From Subdoligranulum variabile (GTDB lineage: Bacteria; Bacillota; Clostridia; Oscillospirales; Ruminococcaceae), in contig NZ_CP102293.1 of assembly GCF_025152575.1 (NCBI RefSeq), forward strand, positions 2,356,001 to 2,420,000: DNA of 64,000 nt, read 5' to 3'. The stretch's first letter is position 1, and every line of letters begins with the position of its first letter. The position numbers were made by a program, and so were the translations under genes. The notes below the pieces were generated by a model, which worked only from the letters and a program-made list of their open reading frames with translations, was not told the origin of the DNA and made no database searches. Of the stretch, positions 796 to 64,000 are shown piece after piece.

Positions 796-810
796 GTGTT
801 GCAGATTGCC

Positions 811-840: not shown

Positions 841-858
841 TCTTCACTGTTATTACAA

Positions 859-2051: not shown

Positions 2052-2081
2052 GGCGAACCCTCCTTCTCCCGGTTCGCGGCT

Positions 2082-2110
2082 ATCATACCACAGGCGGCGG
2101 GTTCTGGCAA
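2082..2110 (-). promoter_or_regulatory. sigma-A promoter for folate cyclo-ligase
   Basis: On the minus strand TTGCCA (2110-2105), a 17-base spacer and TATGAT (2087-2082), with an extended TGG in front of the -10 box. It is placed 31 bases before the start codon and is divergent to the rfbC promoter. Confidence 0.75.
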
Positions 2111-2167
2111 GTAACAAAATTCTACACCGTATCCGGTGAAAACTGCGGCAAAGGGGGAGTGCCCATC

Positions 2168-2196
2168 TTGCCCGCAGCAGGAAAATGGAGTATAAT
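2168..2196 (+). promoter_or_regulatory. sigma-A promoter of the polysaccharide operon
   Basis: TTGCCC (2168-2173), 17-base spacer, perfect TATAAT (2191-2196). Transcription would start near 2203 and leave an 80-base leader before rfbC. The 2052-2283 gap therefore holds two divergent promoters and no further gene. Confidence 0.8.
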
Positions 2197-2283
2197 ATAT
2201 CCTGTATTGTTATGTGCCAATATCCCGAAAGAGAAAGAAAAACACATTGAATTTGTGTAGGAAGTAAAGGAGCCGTATTCATC

Positions 2284-2850
2284 ATGGGCAAGTTCAATTT
2301 TATCAAGACCGAGATCCCCGAAGTGCAGGTGATCGAACCGACAGTGTTCGGCGATGACCGCGGTTATTTCATGGAGACCTACCAGATCGACGACTTTGCC
2401 GCTGCCGGCATCGACAAGCCCTTTGTGCAGGACAACCAGAGCCGTTCCACCAAGGGCGTGCTGCGCGGGCTGCATTTCCAGAAGAACCACACCCAGGGAA
2501 AACTGGTGCGTGTGACGCTGGGCGAAGTCTTCGACGTGGCCGTGGACTGCCGTCCTCACAGTGCCACCTTCGGCAAATGGGTGGGCGTGACCCTCTCGGC
2601 CGAAAACAAGAAGATGCTCTACATCCCCGAGGGTTTTGCCCACGGTTTCGTGGTGCTGTCCGACGTGGCGGAATTCTGCTACAAGTGCACCGATGTGTAT
2701 GATCCCACCTCGGAAGGCGGCATCCCCTACGATGATCCCACTGTCAACGTGCAGTGGCCGGACTGCGGCTGCGAGCACAAGACCAGCGCCAAGGACAAGG
2801 AGCATACCCCCTTCGCGGAACAGAAGTTTGAATTCTTCGAGAAGTACTAA
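2284..2850 (+). CDS. rfbC: dTDP-4-dehydrorhamnose 3,5-epimerase
   Basis: A 188-residue cupin epimerase for the third step of dTDP-L-rhamnose synthesis. Family motifs are present in order: DDRGYFMETY, the substrate loop QDNQSRSTKGVLRGLHFQ with the catalytic histidine (GLHFQ), QGKLVRVTLGEVFDVAVD and the second half YIPEGFAHGF. Length is typical. AAAGGAG lies 11 bases before the ATG. It opens an operon with an ABC polysaccharide exporter and glycosyltransferases, which implies a rhamnose-containing surface polymer. rfbA, B and D are not in the window, so the rest of the pathway must be encoded elsewhere. Confidence 0.95.
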   Translation: MGKFNFIKTEIPEVQVIEPTVFGDDRGYFMETYQIDDFAAAGIDKPFVQDNQSRSTKGVLRGLHFQKNHTQGKLVRVTLGEVFDVAVDCRPHSATFGKWVGVTLSAENKKMLYIPEGFAHGFVVLSDVAEFCYKCTDVYDPTSEGGIPYDDPTVNVQWPDCGCEHKTSAKDKEHTPFAEQKFEFFEKY

Positions 2851-2859
2851 GGAGTCACC

Positions 2860-3660
2860 GTGCAAAGTTTCAAAAACAGTTTTGCCAGTTTCTGGAAGTA
2901 CCGTTATCTCTTGCAGAACCTCATCACGCGGGACTTCAAGCTGAAATACCGGCGCAGCGTGCTGGGCGTGGCCTGGAGCGTGCTGAACCCGCTGCTGACC
3001 TGCCTGGTCATGTTCCTGGTGTTCGACTCCATCATGAAGGGCCTGCGCGGGGAGGGCATCCCCAACTTTGCGGGCTTTCTGATCATCGGCCAGCTGCTGT
3101 TCAACTTCTTCCGGGAGTCCACCAGCATGGCCATGGAGAGCGTGCTCAAGAATGCGCCGTTGCTGCGCAAGGTCTATATCCCCAAATACATCTTCCCCAT
3201 GGAGAAGTGCTGCTTCGCCCTGGTGAACTGCGCTTTCAGTTTCATTGCGCTGGTCATCGTCTTTGTCATTACCTGGACGCCGGTGACCTGGGCCACCGCC
3301 TGGATGGCCATCTACCCGCTGATCATGCTCTTTTTCTTCAGCCTGGGCATCGGCCTGCTGCTGTCGGCGCTCTACGTCTTTGTGCGGGACATCATGCATA
3401 TCTGGGAAGTGTTCTGCACGCTGCTGGTCTACGCCAGCGCCATCTTCTATGATCCCGAAACGCTGTCCGGCATCATGCAGCGGCTCATCCATATCAACCC
3501 CATGTACTGGTATATCACGGCCTTCCGCCGCTGTGTGCTGTGGGGCCAGGGGCTGGATGCCACCATGATGGTGGTCTGCTTCCTCTGCGCCGCCGTCAGC
3601 ATGGTGCTGGGTATTGTGGTTTTCAAGAAAAATCAGGACAAGTTTGTCCTGTACATGTAA
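2860..3660 (+). CDS. ABC-2 type polysaccharide export permease (Wzm/TagG family)
   Basis: A 266-residue membrane protein with six predicted membrane helices, the transmembrane half of an exporter that moves undecaprenyl-linked polysaccharide across the membrane. The N-terminal cytosolic segment RDFKLKYRRSVLGVAWSVLNPL is the classic ABC-2 permease start. Near the C-terminus the interface segment reads AIFYDPETL with HINPMYWYI. The start is GTG, 10 bases after rfbC, with AAGGAG spanning the gap. The partner ATPase begins 12 bases downstream. Wzm (O-antigen) versus TagG (teichoic acid) cannot be decided from the sequence; the neighbours favour a rhamnose-containing polymer. Confidence 0.92.
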   Translation: MQSFKNSFASFWKYRYLLQNLITRDFKLKYRRSVLGVAWSVLNPLLTCLVMFLVFDSIMKGLRGEGIPNFAGFLIIGQLLFNFFRESTSMAMESVLKNAPLLRKVYIPKYIFPMEKCCFALVNCAFSFIALVIVFVITWTPVTWATAWMAIYPLIMLFFFSLGIGLLLSALYVFVRDIMHIWEVFCTLLVYASAIFYDPETLSGIMQRLIHINPMYWYITAFRRCVLWGQGLDATMMVVCFLCAAVSMVLGIVVFKKNQDKFVLYM

Positions 3661-3672
3661 GGGGGCGCACCT

Positions 3673-4449
3673 ATGGCAGCGCAACAGCCGATCATCTCCA
3701 TCGACCATGTCTCGATGCGCTTCAATCTCGCCAAGGAAAAGCACGAGAGCCTGAAAGAATACTTTGTGGCCCTTATGCACGGCGGTGTCCGCTTTGACGA
3801 GTTCTTCGCCCTGGATGACGTCAGCTTTGACATCATGCCCGGGGACTTCTACGGCCTCATCGGTCTCAACGGCAGCGGCAAGAGCACGCTGCTCAAGATC
3901 ATTTCCGGTGTGTACAAGCCCTCCAGCGGCAAGGTGACGGTACGCGGCACCATCGCCCCGCTCATCGAGCTGGGGGCCGGCTTCGACATGGACCTGACCG
4001 CCCGGGAAAACATCTACCTCAACGGTACGGTGCTGGGCTACACACCCAAGTATATCGACTCCAAGTTCGACGATATTGTGGAGTTCAGCGAACTGAAAGA
4101 TTTTCTCGATGTGCCGCTGAAAAACTACTCTTCCGGCATGGTAGCCCGCCTGGCTTTCGCCGTGGCGACGATGACCAAGCCAGATATCCTCATCGCCGAC
4201 GAGATCCTGTCGGTGGGCGACTTCCTCTTCCAGGAAAAATGCGAGCGCCGCATGGCGGAGCTGCTCTCTGGCGGCACCACGGTCATCCTGGTCAGCCATT
4301 CTATCGACCAGATCGAGCGGATGTGCAATAAGGTGGCCTGGCTGGACCACGGCCATCTGCGCCGCAACGGCCTGACCGCCGACATCACCCCGGAATACCG
4401 CCATTTCCAGAAGGAAGACGCCCTACCCGCCAAGCGGACGGAGGAATGA
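3673..4449 (+). CDS. ABC transporter ATP-binding protein for polysaccharide export (Wzt/TagH family)
   Basis: A 258-residue nucleotide-binding subunit. Walker A is GLNGSGKST at about residue 68, the LSGG-type signature is YSSGMVARLAFAV, and Walker B is ILIADEILSVGD, the exact form seen in TagH/Wzt ATPases. The protein ends soon after the ATPase domain, so it lacks the C-terminal carbohydrate-binding domain found in long Wzt proteins; substrate recognition therefore probably lies in the permease. It pairs with the permease immediately upstream, and the operon order rfbC-permease-ATPase-glycosyltransferases is typical for ABC-dependent polysaccharide export. Confidence 0.93.
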   Translation: MAAQQPIISIDHVSMRFNLAKEKHESLKEYFVALMHGGVRFDEFFALDDVSFDIMPGDFYGLIGLNGSGKSTLLKIISGVYKPSSGKVTVRGTIAPLIELGAGFDMDLTARENIYLNGTVLGYTPKYIDSKFDDIVEFSELKDFLDVPLKNYSSGMVARLAFAVATMTKPDILIADEILSVGDFLFQEKCERRMAELLSGGTTVILVSHSIDQIERMCNKVAWLDHGHLRRNGLTADITPEYRHFQKEDALPAKRTEE

Positions 4450-4456
4450 ACCACCC

Positions 4457-6328
4457 ATGAAGCAACAACCCAACAACGAACGTCCCGCCGATCTGGCCGT
4501 ACAGGACAGCGTGGGCGGGATGGCCCGCCGTCTGCTGAATCCCGCCCATCTGCGGGATCTGGCCCACCGTTCGATGGTCACTCTGCGGGAGCAGGGGGCG
4601 GAACAGCTCTGGCGGGATGTGTCCTTCCGGGTGGGGCTGGCCTTTCATCACGACGACTGGCGGCACCGGGCAGACCTGCCCCTGCGCCGCACCCTGAAAG
4701 CCCAGCGGGCCGCCGGTCTGCAGGGCCCTTGCGTCAGTGTGGTGGTGCCGGTCTTCAATACGCCGCTGCGCTTTTTCGACGAGATGGTGAAGAGCGTCCA
4801 GCGCCAGACCTATGCCAACTGGCAGCTGGTGCTGGTGGATGCCAGCGACGAAGGCCACGGGGAGGTCTCCCGGCGGGCACAACAGTACGCCGCCAAGGAC
4901 AGCCGCATCATCTGCCAGAAGATTGAAAACCAGGGCATTGCTGCCAACACGACGGCGGGCTTTGCTGCGGCAACCGGCGGCTATCTGGCCCTGCTGGACC
5001 ACGACGACGTGCTCTATCCCAACGCCCTCTTTGAATGTGTGCAGACCATCCAAAATACCGGCACGGATTTTGTCTACAGTGACGAGATCGTGCTGTCGGC
5101 AGACCTGAAACAGCTGGGCGGTTACCATTTCAAACCGGACTTTGCTCCCGATTATCTGCGGGGCGTCAACTTCATCACCCATCTGGCGGTATTCAGCCGT
5201 CCGCTGCTGGACGCGGCGGGGGCCTATGAATCCAGCGAGTTTGACGGCGCCCAGGACCATGACCTGATCCTGCGGCTCACCGAAAAGGCCAAAAAGATCG
5301 AGCACATCAAACAGGTGCTCTATATCTGGCGGGGCCACGCGGGATCCACGGCGGCGGGCATGGAAGCCAAACCCTACGCCATTGCGGCAGGGGAGCGGGC
5401 CATCGACGCCCAGCTGAAGCGGCTGGGCCTGCCCGGCCGGGCCATGGCAGTGGCCGACGCGCCCGGCGCTTTCCAGGTGCGGTACGAACTCACGGGTCAT
5501 CCGCTGATCAGCGTGCTCATCCCCAACAAGGACCATACCGACGATCTGGACCGCTGCCTGACGAGCCTTTATAAAAACGCCGGGTACGATAACTTCGAGG
5601 TCCTCGTCATCGAGAACAACTCCACAGACCCTGCCACCGAAGCCTACTACCAGACCCTGCCCCAGCGGTTTGACCGGTGCCGGGTGGTGCGGTATGAGGG
5701 GCCCTTCAACTTCTCGGCCATCAACAACTTCGGCGCAAAATTTGCCCAGGGCGAACATCTGCTGCTGCTGAACAACGATATCGAGATTCTCTCGGAAGAT
5801 TTCCTGCGGGAACTGCTTAGCTACAGCCAGCGCCCCGACGTGGGCGCGGTGGGCGCCAAACTCTATTATCCCGACGATACCATCCAGCATGCAGGCGTGC
5901 TCATGGGCATCAACGGCAGTGCGGGCCACAGCCACAAGAGCTACCCCCGCACGGCGGTGGGCGACATGTACCGCCTGGTGACTACCCAGGACTATATGGC
6001 CGTCACCGGCGCCTGCCTGATGACCAAGGCCTCGCTGTATAAGGCAGCTGGTGGCCTCGACGAAGAAAGGTTTGCCGTGGCCTACAACGACGTGGACTAT
6101 TGCCTGAAACTCTGGATGCAGGGTCTGCTTAATGTCTACACCCCCCGCGCCGAAGCCTACCACTACGAGAGCAAGAGCCGGGGACTGGATACCCTGTCGG
6201 AGAACGCCAAACGCTACGAGCGGGAGAAGGCCAACTTCTACGCCAAATACCGGCAGTATATCGACAACTACGATCCCTACTACAACCCGCATTTCAACAA
6301 TCTGTTTGAAAACTTCGGCCTGAAATAA
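4457..6328 (+). CDS. tandem-domain family 2 glycosyltransferase
   Basis: A 623-residue cytosolic glycosyltransferase with two GT-A folds in one chain. Domain 1 starts at about residue 93 (VVVPVFNTPLRFF) with its metal-binding region LLDHDDVLYPN near 180. Domain 2 starts at about residue 351 (ISVLIPNKDHTDDL) with LLLLNNDIEIL near 436 and the acceptor-side YYHPDD-like and YNDVDYCLKL segments. Such double proteins often add two residues in a row, or one domain is inactive. The donor is probably dTDP-rhamnose given rfbC, but that is inference. It follows the ABC ATPase by 7 bases. A close paralogue lies just downstream, apart from one small gene. Confidence 0.9.
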   Translation: MKQQPNNERPADLAVQDSVGGMARRLLNPAHLRDLAHRSMVTLREQGAEQLWRDVSFRVGLAFHHDDWRHRADLPLRRTLKAQRAAGLQGPCVSVVVPVFNTPLRFFDEMVKSVQRQTYANWQLVLVDASDEGHGEVSRRAQQYAAKDSRIICQKIENQGIAANTTAGFAAATGGYLALLDHDDVLYPNALFECVQTIQNTGTDFVYSDEIVLSADLKQLGGYHFKPDFAPDYLRGVNFITHLAVFSRPLLDAAGAYESSEFDGAQDHDLILRLTEKAKKIEHIKQVLYIWRGHAGSTAAGMEAKPYAIAAGERAIDAQLKRLGLPGRAMAVADAPGAFQVRYELTGHPLISVLIPNKDHTDDLDRCLTSLYKNAGYDNFEVLVIENNSTDPATEAYYQTLPQRFDRCRVVRYEGPFNFSAINNFGAKFAQGEHLLLLNNDIEILSEDFLRELLSYSQRPDVGAVGAKLYYPDDTIQHAGVLMGINGSAGHSHKSYPRTAVGDMYRLVTTQDYMAVTGACLMTKASLYKAAGGLDEERFAVAYNDVDYCLKLWMQGLLNVYTPRAEAYHYESKSRGLDTLSENAKRYEREKANFYAKYRQYIDNYDPYYNPHFNNLFENFGLK

Positions 6329-6340
6329 GGAGGCCCAGCC

Positions 6341-6589
6341 ATGAAAAACCGCTTTGATACCCAGCTTTTGATCGAAGGACACGACCTGGATGAGGACGTC
6401 ATCCACGAAGGCATCCTGAACTGTGCCGAGGGCGACTGCCTGCTGGTGGTGGGGGACGAGGACCTGATCAAGGTCCACTACCACACCGATACCCCCTGGA
6501 AGGTGCTGGAATACGCCGCCACCCAGGGTGACATCCACACCATCATCATCGAAAATATGGAGCGTCAGGCCAACGGCCTGCACGGCTGA
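6341..6589 (+). CDS. small protein equivalent to the middle domain of FakA (fatty-acid kinase)
   Basis: An 82-residue protein. The stretch LLVVGDEDLIKVHYHTDTPWKVLEYA and the end IIIENMERQ match, by recall, the middle domain of FakA/YloV (usual pattern GDSLVVVGDDxLVKVHVHTDxPG...IKIENMxxQ). The FakA kinase domain before it and the Dak1_2-like part after it are missing. The paired histidines HYH (usual HVH/HIH) are kept, whereas the cysteine of the usual YCTEF motif is replaced by aspartate (FDTQL). AAGGAGG precedes the ATG at good spacing, and the gene is tightly packed between two glycosyltransferases, so it is a real gene rather than debris. Function is unknown; a binding or regulatory role is possible. 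Confidence 0.75.
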   Translation: MKNRFDTQLLIEGHDLDEDVIHEGILNCAEGDCLLVVGDEDLIKVHYHTDTPWKVLEYAATQGDIHTIIIENMERQANGLHG

Positions 6590-6593
6590 TGCC

Positions 6594-8432
6594 ATGAGTC
6601 AGCAGACCAAACGGATCAAGGAACTGTTCGGCTACGCCCGCACTCTGACCAAAGAGCAGGGCGTTGGGGTCATGGCCAGCCGGGCCGCCGGCTTTTTCAA
6701 GCGGCGGTTTTTCGGCAAGCGGGCGCGGTATCTGCCCGCCAAAAAGACGCTGGAAACCCAGCGCAGCGAGGCCGCCCTGCATGCCAAAGAATGGCCCACC
6801 ATCAGCATCCTGACGCCGCTGTACAATACGCCGCCCCGGTTTTTGCAGCAATTCCTGGACAGTGTCCAGGAGCAGACGGCACCCAACTGGCAGCTGGTGC
6901 TGGTGGACGCCAGCGATGACGCTCACGGCGAAGTGGGCCGGGCGGTACAGCAACGGGCCGCGGAGGACAGCCGTATTGTCTACCAAAAAATTCAAAACGG
7001 CGGCATCGCGGCCAACACCAACGCGGCGGCGGCGCTGGCCACCGGGGACTATCTGGCGCTGGCGGACCACGACGATATGCTGGCCCCCCATGCCATCTAC
7101 TGCATGAGCAAGGCCCTGGCCGAAAGCAAGGCCGATTTTGCCTACAGTGACGAAGCCCTCTTTGAAAAGGTCCCCCAGCGCCCGCGGGTGGGCCACTTCA
7201 AGCCGGATTACGCCCCGGAATACCTGATGGCCGTCAACTATATCTGCCACCTGGCAGTGTTCCGTCGGGAGCTGTTTGCGGCGGTGGGCGGCGAACGCCC
7301 TGCATGTGACGGCGCCCAGGACCATGACCTTTTCCTGCGCCTTATCGACGAGATGCAGCGCCGGAACCCGGCGGCGCGCCCCCTGCACGTTCCCCAGGTG
7401 CTCTATTACTGGCGGGTGCATGCGGCGTCCACCAGCGGCGGCACCGGGGCCAAGCCCTATGTGGAGGCAGCGGCCCGCAAGGCGGTGGCCGACCATCTGG
7501 CCGCCACCGGCCGCCACGGCGCCGTGGAAGCGGGCAAGTTCCCCGGCACCTGCCATGTGGTATGGGAGATTCCCGAACCCCAGCCGCTGGTGTCCATCCT
7601 GATCCCCAACAAGGACCACACCGCCGATCTGGAGAAGTGCCTGCACAGTCTGTATGCCAAAACGACCTACGACAATTTCGAGGTCATCGTCATCGAGAAC
7701 AACTCCACCGACCCCGCCACCGAAGCCTACTATCAGCAGCTGCCCCAGCGGTACGACCGCGCACGGGTGGTGCGTTATAAGGGCGGGTTCAACTTCAGCC
7801 GCATCAACAACTTCGGCCGCAAGTACGCCACCGGCAGCTACCTTTTGCTGCTCAACAATGACATCGAAGTCATCAACGGCGACTGGCTGACCCAGATGGT
7901 AGGGGAGTGCCTGCAGCCCGGTGTGGGCATCTGCGGCGCCATGCTCTACTATCCCGACGATACCATCCAGCATGCCGGCATCATCACGGGGCTGGGCGGC
8001 TATGCGGGTCACAGCCACAAGTACCACAAGCGGGGCGGCAGCGGTTATATGTTCCGGCTGGCCACCGTGCAGGATTTCTCCGCGGTGACGGCGGCCTGCC
8101 TGCTGGTGCGCACGGCGGTGTTCGACGCCGTCCACGGCCTGGACGAGAGCCTGACCGTGGCTTACAACGATGTGGACTTCTGCCTGCGGGTGCGGGATGC
8201 CGGCTGGCGGATCGTCTGGACGCCCTACGCCGAGCTTTACCACCACGAGAGCAAATCCCGCGGTTCCGACGAGAAGGATCCCGCCAAAAAAGCCCGGTTT
8301 GACGCCGAACATGACCGCCTGTATGAGGTGCATGGCCGGGAAAACATCCTCCACGACCCATACTACAATCCCTCTCTCTCCCTGGACTATGAGGACTTCC
8401 GGGAGAGCGGCGATCTGCACCATCTGAAATAA
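6594..8432 (+). CDS. tandem-domain family 2 glycosyltransferase (paralogue of the preceding one)
   Basis: A 612-residue protein with the same two-GT-A layout as the gene at 4457. Domain 1 begins near residue 69 (ISILTPLYNTPPRF), with LADHDDMLAPH near 153. Domain 2 begins near 332 (VSILIPNKDHTADL), with LLLLNNDIEVI near 418, then YNDVDFCLRV. Segments such as VIENNSTDPATEAYYQ are almost identical in both, indicating a duplication. ATG at 6594 is used, 4 bases after the stop of the small gene; an in-frame extension to 6528 would overlap that gene and looks non-coding. It is the last gene of the polysaccharide operon and ends at a terminator. Confidence 0.9.
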   Translation: MSQQTKRIKELFGYARTLTKEQGVGVMASRAAGFFKRRFFGKRARYLPAKKTLETQRSEAALHAKEWPTISILTPLYNTPPRFLQQFLDSVQEQTAPNWQLVLVDASDDAHGEVGRAVQQRAAEDSRIVYQKIQNGGIAANTNAAAALATGDYLALADHDDMLAPHAIYCMSKALAESKADFAYSDEALFEKVPQRPRVGHFKPDYAPEYLMAVNYICHLAVFRRELFAAVGGERPACDGAQDHDLFLRLIDEMQRRNPAARPLHVPQVLYYWRVHAASTSGGTGAKPYVEAAARKAVADHLAATGRHGAVEAGKFPGTCHVVWEIPEPQPLVSILIPNKDHTADLEKCLHSLYAKTTYDNFEVIVIENNSTDPATEAYYQQLPQRYDRARVVRYKGGFNFSRINNFGRKYATGSYLLLLNNDIEVINGDWLTQMVGECLQPGVGICGAMLYYPDDTIQHAGIITGLGGYAGHSHKYHKRGGSGYMFRLATVQDFSAVTAACLLVRTAVFDAVHGLDESLTVAYNDVDFCLRVRDAGWRIVWTPYAELYHHESKSRGSDEKDPAKKARFDAEHDRLYEVHGRENILHDPYYNPSLSLDYEDFRESGDLHHLK

Positions 8433-8440
8433 AACAACAA

Positions 8441-8473
8441 CACCCCGCACATCCGAAGATGTGCGGGGTGTTT
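8441..8473. terminator. bidirectional terminator between convergent operons
   Basis: A perfect 13-bp stem, caccccgcacatc (8441-8453) with gatgtgcggggtg (8458-8470), around a CGAA tetraloop. TTT follows on the plus strand and a T-rich ttgttgtttt on the minus strand, so it can end both the glycosyltransferase operon and the minus-strand dehydratase operon. The same cccgcacatc/gatgtgcggg arms recur at 36116-36149. Confidence 0.85.
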
Positions 8474-8490
8474 GCTGTATCAGAGAAAAA

Positions 8491-9813
8491 TTACTGCACA
8501 GTGGTCTGCAACTGGGGGGCGCCGCCGGCCAGCTCCTCGGCGGTGAGGGGGGACGGTGCCTCGACAGGCTGGTTCAGCCGCTCCCGGGCCACGGCCAGCA
8601 TCAGCTTGATGCGGTTTTCCTGGTTGACGCGGGTGGCGCTGGGGTCATAGTCCACGGGGGTGATGTTGGCTTCAGGGTGCAGGGCGCGGATCTTGTTGAT
8701 CATGCCTTTGCCCACGATGTGGTTGGGCAGGCAGCCGAAGGGCTGGGCACAGACGATGTTGCCGTAGCCGCCCTCCACCAGTTCCAGCATTTCAGCGGTG
8801 AGCAGCCAGCCCTCGCCCATCTTGGCACCCAGGGAGATGATGCCCTCCGGTTTTTTCATCAGTTCCCGGAAGGAGCCCGGCGCATAGAAGCCGTACTTCC
8901 GCATGGCGTCGTAGCTGGCCACGCCGATAGAATCCAGCCAGCCCAGGAAGGCGTCGGCACCGCCGGCGACCAGCTTGTTGCCGCCGTAGAGGTCGATGTC
9001 CAGCCGGGTGTTGGCCACGCAGTATTCCACAAAGCCCATCAGACCGGGCAGGTTGACCTCGCAGTCCTGGCTTTCCAGGAACTTTTCCAGGTCGTTGTTG
9101 CCCAGGGGGGAGTATTTGACGTAGATCTCGCCCACAACACCCACTTTGACCTTGGGGACCCGGGTGACGGGAATGGTGGCATAGTCGGCGGCGATGGCAG
9201 GGAACTGCTTCTTCATGGCCGGGGCCGAGTAGTTGCGGTCGCTGCGGATCCATTCCTGGATGCGGGCGATCCACTTCTCGGTCATGGCGTCGGCGTCGCC
9301 CTTGCGGTTCTCGTAGGGGGCAGTCTGGCTGCGCAGCGCTACCAGCATGTCGCCGTAGAAGATGGCAGCAATGACCTTGCGCAGCAGCGGCAGGGTCAGG
9401 GGCAGGCCGCTGCCTTTCTCCAGGCCCGAGAAGTTCAGCGACGCCACCGGAATGTTGCCGTAGCCGGCTTTGACCAGCGCCTTGCGCAGAAGTTTGATGT
9501 AGTTGGAAGCACGGCAGCCGCCGCCCGTCTGGGTGATGAGCAGGGCCGTGTGATCCAGATCGTACTTGCCGCTGTTCAGCGCGTCCAGAAATTGTCCGAT
9601 GACCAGCAGGGCGGGGTAGCAGGTGTCGTTGTGGACGTATTTCAGGCCCAGCTGGGCCACCTCGCTGCCGCAGTTGCCCAGCACCTCGGTCTGGTAGCCT
9701 TCGCTGGCCAGGGCGGCCTGCATCAGACGGAACTGGGTCACCGCCATGTTGGGGATCAGGATCTTGTGGGTCTTTACCATCTCTTTGGTAAAATTGGGGG
9801 TCATGTATTCCAT
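8491..9813 (-). CDS. 2-hydroxyacyl-CoA dehydratase-related protein (DUF2229/HgdB-like)
   Basis: A 440-residue protein of the dehydratase-component family that partners BadF-type activases. Cysteine-bearing segments suited to an iron-sulfur cluster are visible: LGNCGSEVAQLG, HNDTCYPAL and TQTGGGCRASNY, then a later QPFGCLPNHIVGKG. In many Firmicutes this region is fused to the upstream activase; here it is a separate gene 33 bases downstream of it. The real substrate of these widespread uncharacterised pairs is not known, so hydroxyglutaryl-CoA activity should not be assumed. The first ATG is preferred because AAAGAGG lies 8 bases before it. Oxygen-sensitive chemistry fits an obligate anaerobe. 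Confidence 0.85.
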   Translation of the reverse strand: MEYMTPNFTKEMVKTHKILIPNMAVTQFRLMQAALASEGYQTEVLGNCGSEVAQLGLKYVHNDTCYPALLVIGQFLDALNSGKYDLDHTALLITQTGGGCRASNYIKLLRKALVKAGYGNIPVASLNFSGLEKGSGLPLTLPLLRKVIAAIFYGDMLVALRSQTAPYENRKGDADAMTEKWIARIQEWIRSDRNYSAPAMKKQFPAIAADYATIPVTRVPKVKVGVVGEIYVKYSPLGNNDLEKFLESQDCEVNLPGLMGFVEYCVANTRLDIDLYGGNKLVAGGADAFLGWLDSIGVASYDAMRKYGFYAPGSFRELMKKPEGIISLGAKMGEGWLLTAEMLELVEGGYGNIVCAQPFGCLPNHIVGKGMINKIRALHPEANITPVDYDPSATRVNQENRIKLMLAVARERLNQPVEAPSPLTAEELAGGAPQLQTTVQ

Positions 9814-54184: not shown

Positions 54185-54462
54185 AACTGAGTTTGTATGA
54201 ACAGGAAACGATTATCCTCTATAACCAGGCCGAGGCCACCGCCGAGGTCTATTCCCACGACCCGCGCCTGCTGGAAAAGCTGCGGCGGCTGGCGGAGAAA
54301 TACCCGGACCAGATCGTGAAAAAGGACCGCCAGACCTTCGTGGTGCCCAAACGCTGCGTGTCGGTGCGGGAGCCGTACAGCGCCGAGCGCCGCAAGGCCG
54401 CCAGCGAACGGGCCAAGGCTGCCGGGTACAGGCCGCCCATCCCCAAAGCGGGCGGTAAGTGA
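54181..54462 (+). CDS. small conserved ICE protein (downstream of topB)
   Basis: A 93-residue basic protein (MKLSLYEQETIILYNQAEATAEVYSHDPRLLEKLRRLAEKYPDQI ... RKAASERAKAAGYRPPIP). The form YNQAEATAEVYSHDPRLLEKL and the KKDRQTFVVPKRCVSVREPY strand occur widely in this ICE family as an unnamed small protein. ATGA overlap with topB. The basic C-terminus could bind DNA. Confidence 0.78.
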
Positions 54463-54464
54463 GC

Positions 54465-57400
54465 ATGGGCGAGAGCGTATTTGAAGTCGTAAAACAGTCC
54501 GTCACCGTCCGGGAAGCGGCGGAGCTTTACGGCATCGCGGTGGGGCGCAGCGGCATGGCCTGTTGCCCCTTCCACGATGACCGCCACCCCAGCATGAAGG
54601 TGGACGCCCGTTTCCACTGTTTTGGCTGCGGCGCAGACGGCGACGTGATCGACTTCACCGCCCGGCTCTATGACCTGTCCCCCAAGGAGGCCGCCGAAAA
54701 GCTGGCCCAGGATTTTGGCCTTTCCTATGACAACAAGGCCCCGCCCCGGCGAAGCTATGTCCGGCAAAAATCCGAGGCGCAGGTACGGAAAGAAAAACGG
54801 GAACACGGCTGGCGCGTCCTGACGGACTACTACCACCTGCTCCGAAAATGGGAGGCCGACTATTCCCCCAAGATGCCGGACGAGGACCCGCACCCGCGCT
54901 TTTTGGAGGCCATCCAGAAAAAAGACTACATGGGCTATCTGCTGGACACCTTTCTCGACAGCAGCACCGAGGAACAGGACCAGTGGATCGCAGAACACAC
55001 CGCTGAAATTTCGGCCATAGAAGGGAGAGTGAACATCATGGCTGACAAACCCACCAACCGGGAACGGTTGCAGCAAATCACGGCGGGCATCGAGCAGGGT
55101 ATCAAGGAACTGTTCGAGAGCGAAAAGTATATGCGCTACCTGTCCGTGATGTCCCGGTTCCACCGCTACTCCGTCAACAACACCATGCTCATCTATATGC
55201 AGAAGCCGGACGCCACGCTGGTGGCCGGGTACAACAAGTGGAAAAATCAGTTTGAGCGTCATGTGAAGCGCGGCGAACACGGCATTACCATCATTGCGCC
55301 CACGCCATTCAAGAAAAAGATTGAGGAACAGAAGCTGGACCCGGACACCAAGGCCCCCATCCTGGACGCAGAGGGCAAGGCGGTCATGGAGGAACGGGAA
55401 GTTGAGATCCCCATGTTCCGCCCGGTGAAGGTGTTCGATGTAAGCCAGACGGACGGCAAACCCCTGCCGGAGCTGGCGTCCACCCTGTCCGGGAACGTCC
55501 AGAACTACGAGGCTTTCATGGAGGCGCTGCGCCGGTCCGCGCCGGTGCCGCTCTCTGTGGAGCCGATGGCAGCCAACATGGACGGATATTTCTCGCCGGA
55601 CCGGCAGCGCATCGCCATCCGTGCTGGCATGAGCGAGGTACAGACCGTTTCCGCCGCCGTCCATGAGATCGCCCACAGCAAGCTGCACAACTACGCTAAG
55701 GCTCAGGAGGAAGCGGTCAGGGCCGGTGACAAGGAGCCGCCCAAGAAGAAAGACCGCAATACCGAGGAGGTGGAAGCCGAGAGCATTTCCTACGCGGTTT
55801 GCCAGTATTACGGTATCCAGACCGGCGAGAACAGCTTCGGCTACATCGCCAACTGGAGCCAGGGTAAGGAGCTGCCGGAGCTGCGGGCCAGTTTGGAAAC
55901 TATCAATAAGACCGCCGGTGAGCTGATTAACGACATCGACCGGCACTATAAGGTTATCTGCAAGGAGCGCGGTATTGACCTGACTGCTGCCCCGGAACCG
56001 CAGCTGGACCCTATCGAGCAGCTGGCAGCCGACATCGACCAGTTTTCTTTTGACTACGATACCTATGAATATCGGGATCAGGTGGATAATCGTGAGGATG
56101 CGCTGCGGGAACTGACCGCTACGCTCCGCAGCGGGGATGCCAGCGGTGTTCGGGACTGGCTCCAGGAATTTGCCGATGAAAATGAACCTGGAGAAGCGGT
56201 CACAAAAGCTGCCGAGCTGTTGGATCGTCTGGACCAGCTGGTGCCGGAACCTGACCCCAACCTTGTGAAAATGGCGGATGAAGCGAGGGCGATGGGCGTA
56301 GATACTGCGTGGAACTCTGATAAGGAATTCCCGGTATCCTTCGATACTGAAAGGACCCAGCCCAGCGCCGAAGCCCAGGAGGCCCTGTTGCTGGTTGATG
56401 ATGCCACTTATCTTCATGTTCAGTCCTGCGACACCGGCTGGGACTACACGCTCTACGATGCAGCGACCATGAAGCAGCTGGACGGCGGCCAGCTGGATGC
56501 GCCGGAGCTGTCGCTGTCCACCGCTGCGCTGAAAATCTGTGAGATGCGCGGCATGGGCGGCCAGTCCATTCGCTATGCACCGCTGTCCATGATCGAGACC
56601 TTGCAGGAGGCGGCAATCCAACAGATGCAGGCAGCGGCTCAAGCCGCTGTGCCGGAAGTCACCCAGCTGCCGGATGCCCCGGAGCAGGCGCTGGACGAAT
56701 ACCCCATGCCGGACCCGGCGCTGACCCAAGACGATTTGGAAAAGTGCGGCTACCTGGACAGCGACCTTCTGCCCCTTTCCAAAGAGCGGGCCTACGAGCT
56801 GATGGCGCAGGACCTGACTGTGTACATGGTCCAGCAGGGAGAGAATCCGGCGATGGCCTTTGATACCGCCGACCTGGACGCCCACGATGGCATTTTTGCC
56901 GTCACCCGTGAGGAATGGGAGGATAGTCCCTCCTTTGATGCTCAGGTCATGGACCGCATGGACCACCAGCAGGAACGGGAGCAGGCGTTTCTCAACCACA
57001 AGGGCGATTGCTATGCCATCTATCAGGTAAAGCACACCGATGAACTGAGGGACATTCGCTATGAAGGGCTGGAATGGGTCAAGTCCATCGGGCGGACTGT
57101 GCAGCGCGATAACTACGATCTGGTCTATACTGCGCCGCTCACACCCGGCGACCTGAAAGGCAGCGTGCTGGATAATCTTGAATACCGCTTCAACAACGAA
57201 CACCCTGCCGACTACCGCCACCCGTCTATGAGCGTCAGTGACATCGTTGCCATCAAGCAGGACGGCAAGGTATCCTGTCATTACTGCGACAGTTTTGGCT
57301 TTCAGCAAATCCCCGGCTTCCTGCCGGACAATCCGCTGAAAAGTGCGGAGATGACGGTGGAGGACGACTACGGCATGATCGACGGCGTTATCAACAACGG

Positions 57401-57596
57401 CACCAAGGAGCCGACGGTGGCCCAGCTGGAACAGCAGGCCCGCAGCGGCCAGCCCATCTCTCTCATGGATTTGGCGGCCGCCGCCCACCGGGAAGATCGG
57501 GACAAGAAGAAGTCCGTCATGGATCAGCTGAAAAGTCAGCCTAAATCCGAACACAAAAAGACAGCGCCCAAAAAGAGCGCGGAAAGGGAGATCTGA
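54465..57596 (+). CDS. CHC2 zinc-finger - ArdC-like metallopeptidase - YodL/DUF4316 fusion
   Basis: A 1043-residue protein. Residues about 30-85 are a DnaG-type CHC2 zinc finger (CCPFHDDRHPS...FHCFGCGADGDVIDF). Residues about 192-480 are ArdC-like: the N-terminal DNA-binding part (YLSVMSRFHRYSVNNTMLIYMQKPDATLVAGYNKW) and an HExxH metallopeptidase motif (VHEIAHSKLH near 399). Then variable linkers, and at about 770-1000 the YodL and DUF4316 regions (DLTVYMVQQGENPAMAF, YAIYQVKHTDELRDIRYEGLEWV). In related ICEs CHC2 and ArdC-YodL parts are usually separate genes. An internal ATG at 55038 with GGGAG before it might still start the second part alone. ArdC proteins are known for antirestriction. 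Confidence 0.88.
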   Translation: MGESVFEVVKQSVTVREAAELYGIAVGRSGMACCPFHDDRHPSMKVDARFHCFGCGADGDVIDFTARLYDLSPKEAAEKLAQDFGLSYDNKAPPRRSYVRQKSEAQVRKEKREHGWRVLTDYYHLLRKWEADYSPKMPDEDPHPRFLEAIQKKDYMGYLLDTFLDSSTEEQDQWIAEHTAEISAIEGRVNIMADKPTNRERLQQITAGIEQGIKELFESEKYMRYLSVMSRFHRYSVNNTMLIYMQKPDATLVAGYNKWKNQFERHVKRGEHGITIIAPTPFKKKIEEQKLDPDTKAPILDAEGKAVMEEREVEIPMFRPVKVFDVSQTDGKPLPELASTLSGNVQNYEAFMEALRRSAPVPLSVEPMAANMDGYFSPDRQRIAIRAGMSEVQTVSAAVHEIAHSKLHNYAKAQEEAVRAGDKEPPKKKDRNTEEVEAESISYAVCQYYGIQTGENSFGYIANWSQGKELPELRASLETINKTAGELINDIDRHYKVICKERGIDLTAAPEPQLDPIEQLAADIDQFSFDYDTYEYRDQVDNREDALRELTATLRSGDASGVRDWLQEFADENEPGEAVTKAAELLDRLDQLVPEPDPNLVKMADEARAMGVDTAWNSDKEFPVSFDTERTQPSAEAQEALLLVDDATYLHVQSCDTGWDYTLYDAATMKQLDGGQLDAPELSLSTAALKICEMRGMGGQSIRYAPLSMIETLQEAAIQQMQAAAQAAVPEVTQLPDAPEQALDEYPMPDPALTQDDLEKCGYLDSDLLPLSKERAYELMAQDLTVYMVQQGENPAMAFDTADLDAHDGIFAVTREEWEDSPSFDAQVMDRMDHQQEREQAFLNHKGDCYAIYQVKHTDELRDIRYEGLEWVKSIGRTVQRDNYDLVYTAPLTPGDLKGSVLDNLEYRFNNEHPADYRHPSMSVSDIVAIKQDGKVSCHYCDSFGFQQIPGFLPDNPLKSAEMTVEDDYGMIDGVINNGTKEPTVAQLEQQARSGQPISLMDLAAAAHREDRDKKKSVMDQLKSQPKSEHKKTAPKKSAEREI

Positions 57597-57890: not shown

Positions 57891-60800
57891 ATGCCAACCA
57901 AAGCAGAAATGTACGCGCAGATGGCGGAGAAGGTCGCGGTCCAGCTCACCGGCAGTTGGCAGGAGTGGGCGGGCTTTCTCACCAACGCTGCCCGACTCTA
58001 CAAGTATCCATTCCATGAGCAGCTGATGATCTACGCTCAGCGCCCGGACGCTACCGCCTGCGCCGAGTACGACCTGTGGAATGACCGCATGGGCCGGTAT
58101 GTGCGGCGCGGTTCCAAGGGCATCGCCCTGGTGGACGATTCCGGGGACCGGCCCCGCCTGCGCTATGTGTTCGATATTTCCGACACCGGCACGCGGGAAC
58201 ATTCCCGCACCCCCTGGCTGTGGACGCTGAACGAGGAACACACCGCGCCGGTCATGGCGATGCTGGAACGCAACTACGATGTGAGCGGCGGCGACCTGGC
58301 CCAGCAGCTGGCCGATGTGGCCGCCAAGCTGGCGGAGGAATACTGGGCTGACCACCGGCGGGATATTCTCCCTATCGTTGACGGTTCCTTTTTGGAGGAG
58401 TACGATGAGTACAACATCGAAGTCCAGTTCAAATCCGCCGCCACGGTCAGCATCACCTACGCCCTGATGTCCCGCTGCGGGCTGGAGCCGGAGCAATATT
58501 TCAGCCATGAGGACTTCATGCCGATCTTCGACTTCAACACCCCCGCCGTGATCGGGGCGCTGGGCACAGCCATCAGCCAGGCAAACCAGCAGGTGCTGCG
58601 GCAGATCGGCGTCACCATCCAGAACTATGAGCGCGCCAAGAGCGCGGAAAGGAGTGCCACACATGGAGAACAACCTGACTTACATTCAGAGCGGGGATTA
58701 CCTGATTCCCGACCTGCGCCTGAGCGAGCAGCCGCAGAAGCCCCTGGGCAAGTACGGCAGGATGAGGAAAGCCTATCTGAAGGAACACCGGCCCATCCTT
58801 TACAACCAGCTGCTGATGACCGAGAAGCTGTACCCGCACCTTCTGGAGATCGACGAGACGGCACAGAGCCGTCTGGAACAGATGATGCCGCAGCTGGCCG
58901 AGGAAGTGGGCGCGACGGAAGCGCTGAAAGCCGCCGACCCGATGCAGTGGGTGGGCCTGATGAACACCTGCAAAGCCCAGGCCGAGGAGATTCTGATGAT
59001 GGAACTTATCAACAGCTGACCCTAAACCTGTTCCTCTCCGAAGCGGAACAGATTCAACAGATCGACGAAGCAGAGAGTGTGAAAACGCCCTCTGCTTTTT
59101 CTTTTGCCCAGGCAGATATAGACCATGTTCTGCGGCTCGGCGGCAACACGGACCGCTTTCGGGAGCGTGTCGCTGTGGAATTTGAAAAGCAGAAGCCTAT
59201 TTCAGAAATCGCGGCGTATCTGCCAACCCTCTACCACGGCGGCAGCGGGGTCGGCAGTGTTACCGCATGGTACGCCGAGGACGGCATCCACCTTTCCCAC
59301 GGAAAATTCGCCCGCTATGACAGATCCGCGCAGCTTTTGTCCTGGCAGGACGCCGCCGAACGGATTGGGCAGCTTTTGGAAGTGGGCCAGTTTGCCTCCA
59401 ATGTGGAGCTGGCTGAGGCCGAAAGTTATGAACGGTCCCTGCTGGCAGACGAGTTTTGGAGCCTGTACCACGACTTAAGTGAGGAAGCCAGGAACGCCGG
59501 ATACCTGCAAAGCCTTTCCCTCATTCAAGGGAATGGTTTCCCGGAGGAGTCCGCGTGGCTTACCGGGCAGCTGGCAAATCCGGCGTTTCGGGCAGCACTT
59601 TTGGACGAGTATCAGCAGTTTTTGACTGCCCATCAGGATAACCGGGCGCTGCTGCGGTTCCATTATCACCACCTGGAAGGGATGCTGGCAAGGCTCCGTG
59701 ACCTGGACCTGCCGCGTAAAACCTTCTCTACCGAGCTGGCGGAGGTGCCATCGGCCAAGCGGTTTATCACAGAGGATGAAATAGATGCCGCTCTGACCAG
59801 CGGCAGCGGCATGGCAGGCGGTAAAGGACGTATTTTTGCCTTTTTCCAGGAAAGCCATACCGACAAGGAGAAGGTAGATTTTCTCAAGCACGAATATGGC
59901 ATCGGCGGACGTTCCCACGCCTTGTCCGGCGCGGCTGGCAGTGATGAATGGTATGACGGAAAAGGATTGCACTTCAAAAAAGCCGGATGCCCGGACGTGC
60001 ATCTCACCTGGGATAAAGCTGCCAAGCGGATCACCGCCCTGATTCAACAAGGGCGCTACCTTTCAGCGCAGGAGCAGGCCGAGTTGGAGCAGCGGCAGGA
60101 AGAAGCAGACCTTGCCGAAGCAGACGCTATGGCGGCGCAGCAGGCTGAACTGTCCATCCAGGATTCTTTGGAACAGTACAAACCCATTGTTCGCACCGCG
60201 CTGGAGGCGGATACCGCCTACCGCAACGCCTGCGGCCACTCGGATCACGAAAACGCAGTAATCGAGGGCAACGCCGCCGTGCGCCGGGCGGTGCTAAATT
60301 CCGGCGACCTGGAACTGATCCGGCTCTACTCCGATGTGCCGGAGTTCCGTCACCGCCTGCATGGCGAGGTCATTGACGAGACCTATCCCAAACTCCATGA
60401 GCTGCTGCGCCCACTTTCGGACAATGACATTGACCGAGCCATCCAGGACTGGAACGGCAAGATCGAAAGCAAGCACGCCGTTGTCCGCTACATGAAGGAC
60501 CACGCCCGTGAAAAAGACACCGCCGCATGGCTGGCCCATGAGTTTGACGGCGGCGACAGCAAAACTCCGTTTGCAGTACGCCCGGAAAGCCCCAATGGAA
60601 CGATGCTGCCCTGGCCCAAGGTGCAGCGCCGGATCGCCCAGCTTATCAAGGAAGATCGGTTCTATACCGAAGTGGAACAGGACCGTTTTGACAACATCGA
60701 CCCCATCGCCATCCGGGAAGCTCTGGCCGAGCGCGGCATCGTGAACGGCCAGGTGGTAGACCCGGAAAAGCTGGACAATGACCCGTTTATCCAGCAGGTC

Positions 60801-63800
60801 ATGGCCAACGTGGAACGTGCCGCCGGAGGGGATGAGCCGGAAGCCTACACCAGCCCAGGTGGCCGCACCTATCACCCAGGAGATGCCATAGACGCTTTCA
60901 TTGATGATAAAAGCCCCGTGGTTCGGATGGTTCTTGACCATGTGGACGAGGATTACATTTGGTACACCATGCCCAGCGTCCCTGACCAGGAGCCAGTAGA
61001 GATGCGGCGCGAAATATTTGAGAAATATCTGGACAATGGTGAGTTCCTGCCTGTACCTGTGCCGGACTTATCCGGCCAGCCCATCACCCGCGAGGGAGAC
61101 ACTCTCACCATCGGCAGCGGCGAACCTACCCATGAGATGGATATTACCGTATCGGATGAGGAAGATGAAGCCATCCGGCAGGCTATCCCGGAAACAGAAG
61201 CCCCCGCCACCTACGACCCCGCAACACCCCCTTACCATGTGGGTGATACGGTTTATCTGGACAATCAGGAGTACCAGCTCACCGAGCTGCGGGAAGATAC
61301 GGTGCAGCTGCTGCCCACCGGCATGAGCTACCCCATTTACCGGGTCGAGAGCCGGGAGCGGTTCGAGACGCTGCTGCGTGCGGACACCCGCAACGAAGCC
61401 ATCAACGACTTTTTGCCTGTAAACCCCGACACGGCAGACCAGGACCTGCGGGACGTGCTGGCCCACGGCCTGATCGGCGCGCCGGACAAGGCGGAGCTGT
61501 CCGAACTGATGCGCACCGGCAAGCCCAACCGCGAGATCGCCCAGTGGCTGGGCCGGGCCTTCCCCGGCATCGTGGAAACGATGGAGCTGGAGACCGGCGA
61601 CACCGCCGATTACCGCACCACGTCCGAAGGCATCGAGTTGGAAGTGCTGGATGCAGACGAAAAGCGGCTGGCCATGCTGTTCTTCCGCTGGGATGAGGTC
61701 GCGCCCCTGCTGCGCGGGCTGTATGCCCGCCAGCTGGACGGCTTTGGGCAGGAGCAGGCCGAACCGGCTATTGCCGCTGATACCACTGTCGAAGAACCTA
61801 TTGAAACCGCCAAGCCCACCGAGGAACCCACCGCCGAGACACCGGCGTTCCATTCCGAGCCGGTGACCGTCTATCCTGGCGAACAGAACCATCTGCCCTA
61901 TGATGTGGTGGTGGAGCGGCTGCACGTTAACCAGCCGGAACCTACGCCGCCGGAACCGCGTCCGCCTGAGAATTTCCGCATTCTGGACGATGACCTGGGG
62001 AAAGGCGGGCCAAAGGAAAAATTCTGGCGCAATATCAAAGCAATCGCCACACTGAAGCAGATCGAGCAGGAAAATCGCTATGCCACCCCGGAAGAACAGC
62101 ATATTCTCTCGCAATATGTGGGCTGGGGCGGGCTGGCGGACGCCTTCGACCCGGACAAACCCGCGTGGGCCGCTGAGTATGCGGAGCTGAAGGAACTGCT
62201 GACCCCGGAAGAATATGAAGCGGCCAGAGCCTCCACCCTCAACGCCCACTACACCAGCCCCACTGTGATTCGCGCCATCTACGACGCGGTAGAACAGATG
62301 GGCTTTCGCACCGGCAACATTCTGGAGCCGTCCTGCGGTGTGGGCAATTTCTTCGGGATGCTGCCGGAGAGCATGGCCGGCAGCCGTCTGTACGGCGTGG
62401 AACTGGATTCCATCAGCGGCCGGATTGCAAAGCAGCTCTACCCCAAGGCCGACATCACCGTGGCAGGATTTGAGACCACCGACCGGCGGGACTTCTATGA
62501 CCTTGCCATCGGTAACGTCCCTTTCGGACAGTATCAGGTGAACGACAAAGCCTACAACAAACTGGGCTTCAACATTCACAACTACTTTTTCGCAAAATCG
62601 TTGGACCAGGTGCGGCCGGGCGGCGTGGTGGCTTTCGTCACCAGCCGCTATACGATGGACGCCAAGGATTCCACCGTGCGCCGGTATCTGGCCCAGCGGG
62701 CCGAGCTGCTGGGAGCCATCCGCCTGCCAAACAATGCGTTCAAGGCAAATGCCGGAACTGAGGTCGTTTCGGATATTCTCTTCCTGCAAAAGCGGGACCG
62801 TCCGCTGGACATTACCCCGGACTGGACGCAGACCGGCCGGACCGAGGAAGGCTTCACGGTCAACCAGTATTTTCTCGACCACCCGGAGATGGTGCTGGGG
62901 CAGCCCACCGCCGAAAGCACCCAATACGGCAAGCAGGATTACACCGTGGTCCCCATCGAGGGGCTGGAGCTGGCCGACCAGCTGCACGATGCCGTGAAGT
63001 ATATTCACGGCACCTACCAGGAGGCCGCGCTGCCGGAGCTGGGCGAGGGCGAGGACATCGACGATTCCCTCCCGGCTGACCCGGATGTAAAAAACTATTC
63101 CTACACGGTGGTGGACGGGGCGGTGTACTTTCGGGAAAACAGCCGCATGGTGCGCCCTGACTTAAACGCCACCGCCGAGGCCCGCGTCAAAGGGCTGGTG
63201 GGGCTGCGGGACTGTGTGCAGCAGCTCATCGACCTGGAGATGGACGCCGCCGCGCCGGATGCCGACATCCGGGCGCAGATGGCCGAACTGAACCGCCGCT
63301 ATGACGATTTCTCCGCTAAATATGGCCTTATCAACGACCGGGCAAACCGGCTGGCCTTTGCCGATGACAGCAGCTATTACCTGCTCTGTGCGCTGGAAGT
63401 GCTGGACGAGGACGGCAGGCTGGAACGCAAGGCGGATATGTTCACCAAGCGCACTATCAAACCCCATGAGGCCGTCACCACCGTGGACACGGCCAGCGAG
63501 GCGCTGGCGGTCTCCATCTCGGAGAAAGCCTGCGTGGACATGGCTTATATGGAACAGCTCACCGGCAAAACCGGCGAGGAACTGGCGGACGAGCTGCGGG
63601 GTGTCATCTTCCGTGTGCCGGGCCAGACCGAACCGGACGGGACGCCCCATTATGTGACCGCCGATGAATACCTCTCCGGCAACGTGCGCCGGAAGCTGCG
63701 CCAGGCCCAGCGGGCGGCGGAACAGGACCCGGCCTTTGCGGTCAACGTGGAGGCCCTCACCGCCGCCCAGCCCAAGGACCTGGACGCTTCCGAGATCGAG

Positions 63801-64000
63801 GTGCGGCTGGGGGCAACCTGGATTGACAAAGAGTACATTCAGCAATTCATGTACGAAACCTTTGACACGCCCTTTTACCTTCAGCGCAGCATTGAAGTCC
63901 ACTACTCTGCATTTACCGCCGAGTGGCAGATCTCCGGCAAAAACGCTGTGGGACAGAGAGATGTGGCAGCCTATACCACCTACGGGACCGGCCGCGCCAA
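57891..64000 (+). CDS. giant N6-adenine methylase / helicase ICE protein (3' end beyond window)
   Basis: An open frame of 2036 codons continuing past the window; relatives are about 2,500-3,000 residues and end in a SNF2/DEAD-type helicase. Residues 1-90 hold an ArdC-N-like part (YPFHEQLMIYAQRPDATACAEYDLWNDRMGRYVRRGSKGIALVDD). Residues about 258-376 are a low-complexity Arg/Gly/Pro/Asp stretch that coincides with the nested tnpV gene. From about 600 come KGRIFAFFQES and HLTWDKAAKRITALIQQGRY modules. The N6-methylase has EPSCGVGNFFG near 1478 (AdoMet site) and IGNVPFGQYQV near 1541 (NPPF-like catalytic motif, with V for the first P). GGAAGGGAGG precedes the ATG. Likely protects or processes transferred DNA. 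Confidence 0.92.
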   Translation, partial: MPTKAEMYAQMAEKVAVQLTGSWQEWAGFLTNAARLYKYPFHEQLMIYAQRPDATACAEYDLWNDRMGRYVRRGSKGIALVDDSGDRPRLRYVFDISDTGTREHSRTPWLWTLNEEHTAPVMAMLERNYDVSGGDLAQQLADVAAKLAEEYWADHRRDILPIVDGSFLEEYDEYNIEVQFKSAATVSITYALMSRCGLEPEQYFSHEDFMPIFDFNTPAVIGALGTAISQANQQVLRQIGVTIQNYERAKSAERSATHGEQPDLHSERGLPDSRPAPERAAAEAPGQVRQDEESLSEGTPAHPLQPAADDREAVPAPSGDRRDGTEPSGTDDAAAGRGSGRDGSAESRRPDAVGGPDEHLQSPGRGDSDDGTYQQLTLNLFLSEAEQIQQIDEAESVKTPSAFSFAQADIDHVLRLGGNTDRFRERVAVEFEKQKPISEIAAYLPTLYHGGSGVGSVTAWYAEDGIHLSHGKFARYDRSAQLLSWQDAAERIGQLLEVGQFASNVELAEAESYERSLLADEFWSLYHDLSEEARNAGYLQSLSLIQGNGFPEESAWLTGQLANPAFRAALLDEYQQFLTAHQDNRALLRFHYHHLEGMLARLRDLDLPRKTFSTELAEVPSAKRFITEDEIDAALTSGSGMAGGKGRIFAFFQESHTDKEKVDFLKHEYGIGGRSHALSGAAGSDEWYDGKGLHFKKAGCPDVHLTWDKAAKRITALIQQGRYLSAQEQAELEQRQEEADLAEADAMAAQQAELSIQDSLEQYKPIVRTALEADTAYRNACGHSDHENAVIEGNAAVRRAVLNSGDLELIRLYSDVPEFRHRLHGEVIDETYPKLHELLRPLSDNDIDRAIQDWNGKIESKHAVVRYMKDHAREKDTAAWLAHEFDGGDSKTPFAVRPESPNGTMLPWPKVQRRIAQLIKEDRFYTEVEQDRFDNIDPIAIREALAERGIVNGQVVDPEKLDNDPFIQQVMANVERAAGGDEPEAYTSPGGRTYHPGDAIDAFIDDKSPVVRMVLDHVDEDYIWYTMPSVPDQEPVEMRREIFEKYLDNGEFLPVPVPDLSGQPITREGDTLTIGSGEPTHEMDITVSDEEDEAIRQAIPETEAPATYDPATPPYHVGDTVYLDNQEYQLTELREDTVQLLPTGMSYPIYRVESRERFETLLRADTRNEAINDFLPVNPDTADQDLRDVLAHGLIGAPDKAELSELMRTGKPNREIAQWLGRAFPGIVETMELETGDTADYRTTSEGIELEVLDADEKRLAMLFFRWDEVAPLLRGLYARQLDGFGQEQAEPAIAADTTVEEPIETAKPTEEPTAETPAFHSEPVTVYPGEQNHLPYDVVVERLHVNQPEPTPPEPRPPENFRILDDDLGKGGPKEKFWRNIKAIATLKQIEQENRYATPEEQHILSQYVGWGGLADAFDPDKPAWAAEYAELKELLTPEEYEAARASTLNAHYTSPTVIRAIYDAVEQMGFRTGNILEPSCGVGNFFGMLPESMAGSRLYGVELDSISGRIAKQLYPKADITVAGFETTDRRDFYDLAIGNVPFGQYQVNDKAYNKLGFNIHNYFFAKSLDQVRPGGVVAFVTSRYTMDAKDSTVRRYLAQRAELLGAIRLPNNAFKANAGTEVVSDILFLQKRDRPLDITPDWTQTGRTEEGFTVNQYFLDHPEMVLGQPTAESTQYGKQDYTVVPIEGLELADQLHDAVKYIHGTYQEAALPELGEGEDIDDSLPADPDVKNYSYTVVDGAVYFRENSRMVRPDLNATAEARVKGLVGLRDCVQQLIDLEMDAAAPDADIRAQMAELNRRYDDFSAKYGLINDRANRLAFADDSSYYLLCALEVLDEDGRLERKADMFTKRTIKPHEAVTTVDTASEALAVSISEKACVDMAYMEQLTGKTGEELADELRGVIFRVPGQTEPDGTPHYVTADEYLSGNVRRKLRQAQRAAEQDPAFAVNVEALTAAQPKDLDASEIEVRLGATWIDKEYIQQFMYETFDTPFYLQRSIEVHYSAFTAEWQISGKNAVGQRDVAAYTTYGTGRA
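58663..59019 (+). CDS. tnpV: TnpV family protein, nested in another frame
   Basis: A 118-residue TnpV protein: MENNLTYIQSGDYLIPDLRLSEQPQKPLGKYGRMRKAYLKEHRPILYNQLLMTEKLYPHLLEIDETAQSRLEQMMPQLAEEVGATEAL and following. The NxxxPDLxLxEQPxxPLGKYGRMRKAYLKEHR block is diagnostic. AAAGGAG lies 9 bases before the ATG. The whole gene sits inside the open frame of the methylase-helicase gene (57891 onward), shifted by one base; that frame has no stop across it. TnpV occurs in Tn4451-type and ICE systems with no known biochemical role. Confidence 0.85.
   Translation: MENNLTYIQSGDYLIPDLRLSEQPQKPLGKYGRMRKAYLKEHRPILYNQLLMTEKLYPHLLEIDETAQSRLEQMMPQLAEEVGATEALKAADPMQWVGLMNTCKAQAEEILMMELINS

Follow-up and report, generated by a model that had tools for sequence, protein, structure and literature searches.

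Conserved nesting of a tnpV gene within the open frame of a methylase-helicase gene in Bacillota mobile elements

In the window (the whole stretch of 64,000 nucleotides from Subdoligranulum variabile that was analyzed), a long gene on the forward strand runs from position 57891 to 63998 and on past the window end. Its ORF has no stop up to that end, and in the genome as a whole it comprises 2998 aa and ends outside the window. Its open frame and profile matches describe a protein made up, in order, of an ArdC-like domain, an N6-methylase region, and an SNF2 helicase; in Pfam, the SNF2 domain scored above its cut-off, and the N6_Mtase and Eco57I profiles for the methylase region scored below theirs. 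Wholly inside this host gene, in the +1 frame relative to it, lies tnpV (58663..59019, forward strand), which consists of 118 codons and a stop, from an ATG at 58663 to a TGA at 59017-59019. A first-pass annotation made from the sequence alone had read the big frame as open across this segment, and the ORF from 57891 is indeed uninterrupted there.

Conjugation genes near the host gene encode a coupling protein, TrbL_2, a VirB4 of the CD1110 family, and a CD1107-like protein, and a topoisomerase III gene is also among the neighbors. To judge from the conjugation genes, the element that carries the nest is probably an integrative and conjugative element (ICE). The gene upstream of the host gene (54459-57596) encodes a DnaG-type zinc ribbon, an ArdC-N domain, LPD16, and YodL-like domains, so that two genes with ArdC-N-like domains stand side by side. 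Elsewhere, the S. variabile genome (3.2 Mb) holds a total of nine TnpV places, three of which are nested (L001, L003, and L007); L003 is the window copy, and L001 is part of a second, related element.

The identification of the inner product as a clear TnpV protein held: it matched Pfam family PF14198 over model positions 1-111 of 111, with E = 5.6e-43 and 145.9 bits against a cut-off of 27. Its AlphaFold model (pLDDT 89.5) consists of a beta hairpin and a helical bundle, and a search of the PDB with this model gave no clear match. For TnpV of Tn4451, a role in excision was postulated from homology with lambda Xis, according to the excerpted text of PMC3158075.

The host protein begins with a predicted ArdC-N-like domain (57891..58662, forward strand). 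The first 257 residues matched Pfam ArdcN (PF08401) weakly (E 0.003; 18.2 bits, below the cut-off of 22.6), and the profile matched 5 of 14 members of this N-domain family at E up to 0.1. AlphaFold predicted the first 258 residues to be well folded (pLDDT mostly >85); in a fold search of the PDB the top match was ArdC 6i89 (probability 1.00, E 4.8e-3, TM 0.33/0.45), and nothing was found at E 0.001 or better. In loci L010-L028, similarity to the window's host protein is lost about 32 residues past the overlap in the stretch compared, while the N-terminus and TnpV are still about 90% alike to the window copy; the host protein thus appears modular. Between the N-terminal domain and the rest of the protein, the host-frame reading of the overlap (58662..59021, forward strand; residues 258-377) is predicted to be a disordered linker, with pLDDT <50 at residues 260-351 and 353-381, which is the overlap. 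Its translation is biased just there, in the Arg/Gly/Pro/Asp-rich manner first described.

The first-pass annotation had also suggested that the nesting may be conserved. We collected 59 loci with the host N-terminal 257 residues alone (45–94% identity); because the query was the N-terminus only, neither TnpV nor openness of the host frame was selected for. TnpV lay at the same place in 57 of these loci, always in +1. Two of the 57 (L052 and L062) have a contig end inside TnpV, and the other two of the 59 (L048 and L054) stop short of the TnpV place. The host frame was open across the overlap in all 55 complete loci; beyond it, the host gene is short in some (L024, 418 aa; L050, 830; L013, 1097). 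A second search that again began from the N-terminus covered 118 genomes of the class, 31 with a match. From the matches we took 39 loci, several of them places met before (L207 and L236 are one place, and L199 is the window), and 34 rows had a match of sufficient length. TnpV was present in +1 in 32 of the 34, although in two of these (L221 and L233) the match was weak or partial and failed a stricter cut; no TnpV was detected in L229 and L220. The sequences thus bear out conserved nesting with an unchanged relative frame. Very divergent TnpV-like ORFs, near the profile limit, occupy this position and frame in L185, L191, L221, and L230.

Searches that started from TnpV extended the range of the arrangement. 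With nested rows defined by 0 host-frame stops and a long open frame on both sides, 30 of 91 rows from class genomes (L077-L105 and L112-L171, a choice from a longer list) were nested, as were 13 of 18 TnpV loci outside the class. Nests in Bacilli were found in a Virgibacillus plasmid (L106), a Streptococcus suis plasmid (L107), and Cohnella (L175). In the most distant nested rows (L106, L107, L160, L161, and L164), TnpV is 26–34% identical to the window copy. Public gene tables list only the helicase for L106 and L107 and only TnpV for L174 and L175, although the host frame is open in both of the latter; for L175, the table lists an opposite-strand ORF where the host gene runs. These entries, from a gene table known to be incomplete, are a hint that one gene of the pair goes unannotated.

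An open second frame might arise by accident, since GC-rich coding sequence could leave it free of stops by composition alone. In the inner gene, a T in the third position before a codon starting with AA, AG, or GA creates a host-frame stop. We compared real genes with synonym-preserving shuffles. For the window gene alone, the evidence is only suggestive, because the shuffles held a mean of 2.91 stops and P(open) was 0.018; for single genes in general, P(open) was often >0.05 and reached 0.647, as an accident of composition would predict. The sum over many genes speaks otherwise. Across the 47 distinct overlaps of the set selected by N-terminus, we found 0 host-frame stops against 110.5 expected, and with one row per 80% identity group (7 distinct) there were 0 against 12.8. 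The 30 distinct overlaps of the second set held 1 stop (L203, which is L141) against 68.6 expected. Free-standing TnpV genes (65 distinct) held 442 stops against 526.5 expected, and 63 of the 65 had at least one. The third frame of 50 distinct nested genes held 8–16 stops each. Within these 50 genes, third-position T occurred at 0 of 1292 stop-making places and at 410 of 2473 harmless places; the corresponding values in five free tnpV genes of the S. variabile genome were 14 of 93 and 77 of 272. These counts are not independent, because the rows are related. Nests also occur in loci of 28–29% GC (L142, L161-L163, and L171), which speaks against a GC effect. Both frames are open over the whole inner gene beyond chance, and we regard an accident of composition as practically negligible as an explanation.

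A Shine-Dalgarno sequence, AAAGGAG (58648..58654, forward strand), stands 8 nt before the tnpV ATG, in keeping with the good ribosome site proposed from the first reading. A match of at least 5 nt was present near the start codon in all 84 distinct nests (81 ATG and 3 GTG), against 8.5% of 20,295 control ATGs. Where several starts were possible, the one with the best match was counted, which favors the nests, and in this set, also used for the motif counts below, "nested" was defined by 0 host-frame stops. A Shine-Dalgarno-like sequence inside a coding region can promote frameshifting, which lends some plausibility to a programmed frameshift or reinitiation around tnpV that would give other products, such as an ArdC-TnpV fusion, and no plain reading through. 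Without translation, the host frame would not have remained stop-free over the 47 overlaps, and the spacing from Shine-Dalgarno sequence to ATG is that of initiation. We therefore consider frameshifting or reinitiation very unlikely.

We then compared selection in the two frames with sites sorted by their effect in both and with five groupings of sequences, a comparison across many loci that the first-pass annotation had proposed. The dN/dS of TnpV was 0.07–0.26, which shows purifying selection on the inner protein. For the host frame inside the overlap, the main ratio was 0.52–1.37 and its interval spanned 1 in each of the five groupings, which gave no sign of purifying selection on the outer-frame amino acids there; in the host flanks, values were 0.16 and 0.06 for the N-terminal domain (two groups) and 0.12 downstream. 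This pattern indicates that TnpV is the protein that selection mainly sees and that the host frame is kept open. Because TnpV is constrained and the big frame retains mainly its openness, it is the linker, and not TnpV, that looks like the overprint. The earlier proposal that a single stretch of DNA codes for both a small conserved protein and a flexible linker is thus supported, the linker being predicted (pLDDT <50), with the refinement that the two frames are unequal.

The same results bear on two further alternatives. If tnpV were a dead insert, the helicase alone would be made and the TnpV sequence would linger as a linker. The helicase, as the larger of the two products, is also the more plausible one. 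Against a dead insert stand the dN/dS of 0.07–0.26 in TnpV, where the same bases read in the host frame give values near 1, and the Shine-Dalgarno match that precedes the start in all 84 nests. We give this explanation hardly any credence. Alternatively, both readings could be under amino-acid selection, with a linker sequence that is functional beyond its length and openness. A further host-frame ratio, NS/SS, was 0.27 [0.07–0.98] on 1.7 SS sites in the 5 sequences of group D, which would mean some constraint on the linker, against our main reading; outside group D the intervals for NS/SS include 1, and the ratio rests on about 2–4 sites. In nested genes, the host frame also had slightly fewer order-promoting residues than its synonym shuffles (mean Z -0.92; below zero in 92% of 83 rows), an effect missing from free genes (mean Z 0.06; below zero in 50% of 68 rows). 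This difference in composition is small and comes from related rows, and the interval of the main host-frame ratio includes 1 in every grouping, so we judge selection on both amino-acid sequences to be improbable. The selection and composition results together suggest that TnpV's own codons largely set the flavor of the linker.

At the end of the overlap, the host protein carries a predicted sliding-clamp-type motif, QLTLNLF (59013..59033, forward strand), recognized from motifs in relatives and putative as a binding site. The excerpt of PMC12309361 gives the sliding-clamp-binding consensus as QL[S/D]LF or QxxLF, and the window's QLTLNLF is a longer variant of it, not the pentapeptide. Motifs of this kind (QLSLF, QLNLF, QLTLF, and others) occurred in a 70-aa stretch at the overlap end in 61 of the 84 distinct nests; the same frames further on gave 14 motif hits in 113,012 aa. 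Among the nests that lack it, two (L052 and L062) end ahead of the motif place, and the rest are in part clear near-misses and in part true absences (such as L107, L089, and L161). A clamp-type motif may be a general feature of these ICE methylase-helicases.

L229 and L220, in which no TnpV was detected, have a short linker with QISLF and QLSIF, respectively; L220 ends 71 residues after the N-domain, and a TnpV beyond that point is possible. From such loci we infer that the older layout was a domain joined by a short linker to a clamp motif, and that tnpV later entered it or the host frame was later extended across tnpV. In a TnpV tree, nested rows cluster (12 label changes; shuffles gave 30.6), with several free rows placed among them. 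In an N-domain tree, most rows are nested (60 of 70). Both trees have few columns and long branches.

Broken nests were found three times among the TnpV-first class rows: L141 (one place with L203) has a single host-frame stop inside the overlap, L138 has a single host-frame stop shortly after it, and one of two L121 copies is cut after TnpV. L069, from a viral contig, has the N-terminal part only, with stops after it. In L076 (positions 341-9403 of this locus of the S. variabile genome), the gene directly upstream of a 2771-codon helicase frame, which is related to the host gene and has no nested TnpV, codes for a protein of 247 aa with a TnpV domain (E 2e-08). Neither of the outcomes that the first-pass annotation had set against a nest (a host-frame stop or frameshift, and separate adjacent genes) was found in a close relative; distant rows that point toward them are L141/L203, with its stop in the overlap, and L076, with its TnpV-family gene upstream. 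Because the TnpV and helicase genes keep company in L076 without nesting, a shared role in handling the element's DNA is suggested. We give somewhat less than even odds to the tentative proposal that both TnpV and the helicase take part in a single step, in which the element's DNA is processed or established.

These observations are best explained by a true nested gene, a reading to which we assign a probability of about 0.88 from sequence and prediction: tnpV is constrained, the helicase reads across it as a stop-free disordered tether, and both proteins would be made. Ribosomes starting at 57891 would read straight through the tnpV segment, which would become a disordered tether, about 120 residues long, that links the ArdC-like domain to the sliding-clamp-type motif, and other ribosomes would start at the internal AAAGGAG/ATG (58663) and produce TnpV. 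The host frame over tnpV would be an overprint kept stop-free. A broader interpretation, which we hold to be doubtful, is that the nest is an ancient device across Bacillota mobile elements and that TnpV, translated from within the mRNA segment encoding the tether, acts on or with a methylase-helicase whose tether carries the clamp motif. If this is true, few nested gene pairs in bacteria would be conserved as deeply, and a large protein would here have taken up an entire gene as a disordered linker.

Whether bacteria have long nested genes is a matter of dispute, in part because conservation is seldom seen in the candidates. In this nest the inner gene belongs to a recognized family with free-standing controls, the outer frame stays open despite the divergence of TnpV, and the pattern of selection tells which frame carries the real constraint. 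The clamp-type motif makes a link between the methylase-helicase and the replication fork directly testable.

Free-standing tnpV genes of Tn4451-like transposons, like the free copies in the S. variabile genome, belong to the same family (PF14198); they hold stops in the other frame (63 of 65), whereas here the gene lies wholly inside another. The anti-restriction protein ArdC resembles the first 257 residues of the host protein by the weak ArdcN match and the best fold, 6i89, but here such a domain is fused to a methylase-helicase, its profile score is below the cut-off, and the likeness is one of sequence and predicted fold. The snf2 gene of ICESa2603-family ICEs, described in the excerpt of PMC12942858 as part of the ICE backbone, encodes a methyltransferase with an SNF2 helicase domain. 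This is a similar domain pair, likened by description, and the helicase of the S. suis plasmid (L107) carries the nest; a nested gene goes unmentioned in that excerpt. In the open-license PubMed Central literature that was searched, a scope outside which most subscription papers fall, we found no description of the nest. The other nested cases that this search brought up are, judged by titles, mostly antisense or recent. For E. coli, the excerpted PMC4683798 counts three earlier nested-gene cases and adds a fourth, and in those of E. coli and EHEC, as far as that excerpt describes them, a whole ORF likewise lies inside another gene in a different frame. The nest described here differs in three ways: its inner gene has free-standing relatives in an established family, many genera share the pair, and it is the outer frame that looks like an overprint.
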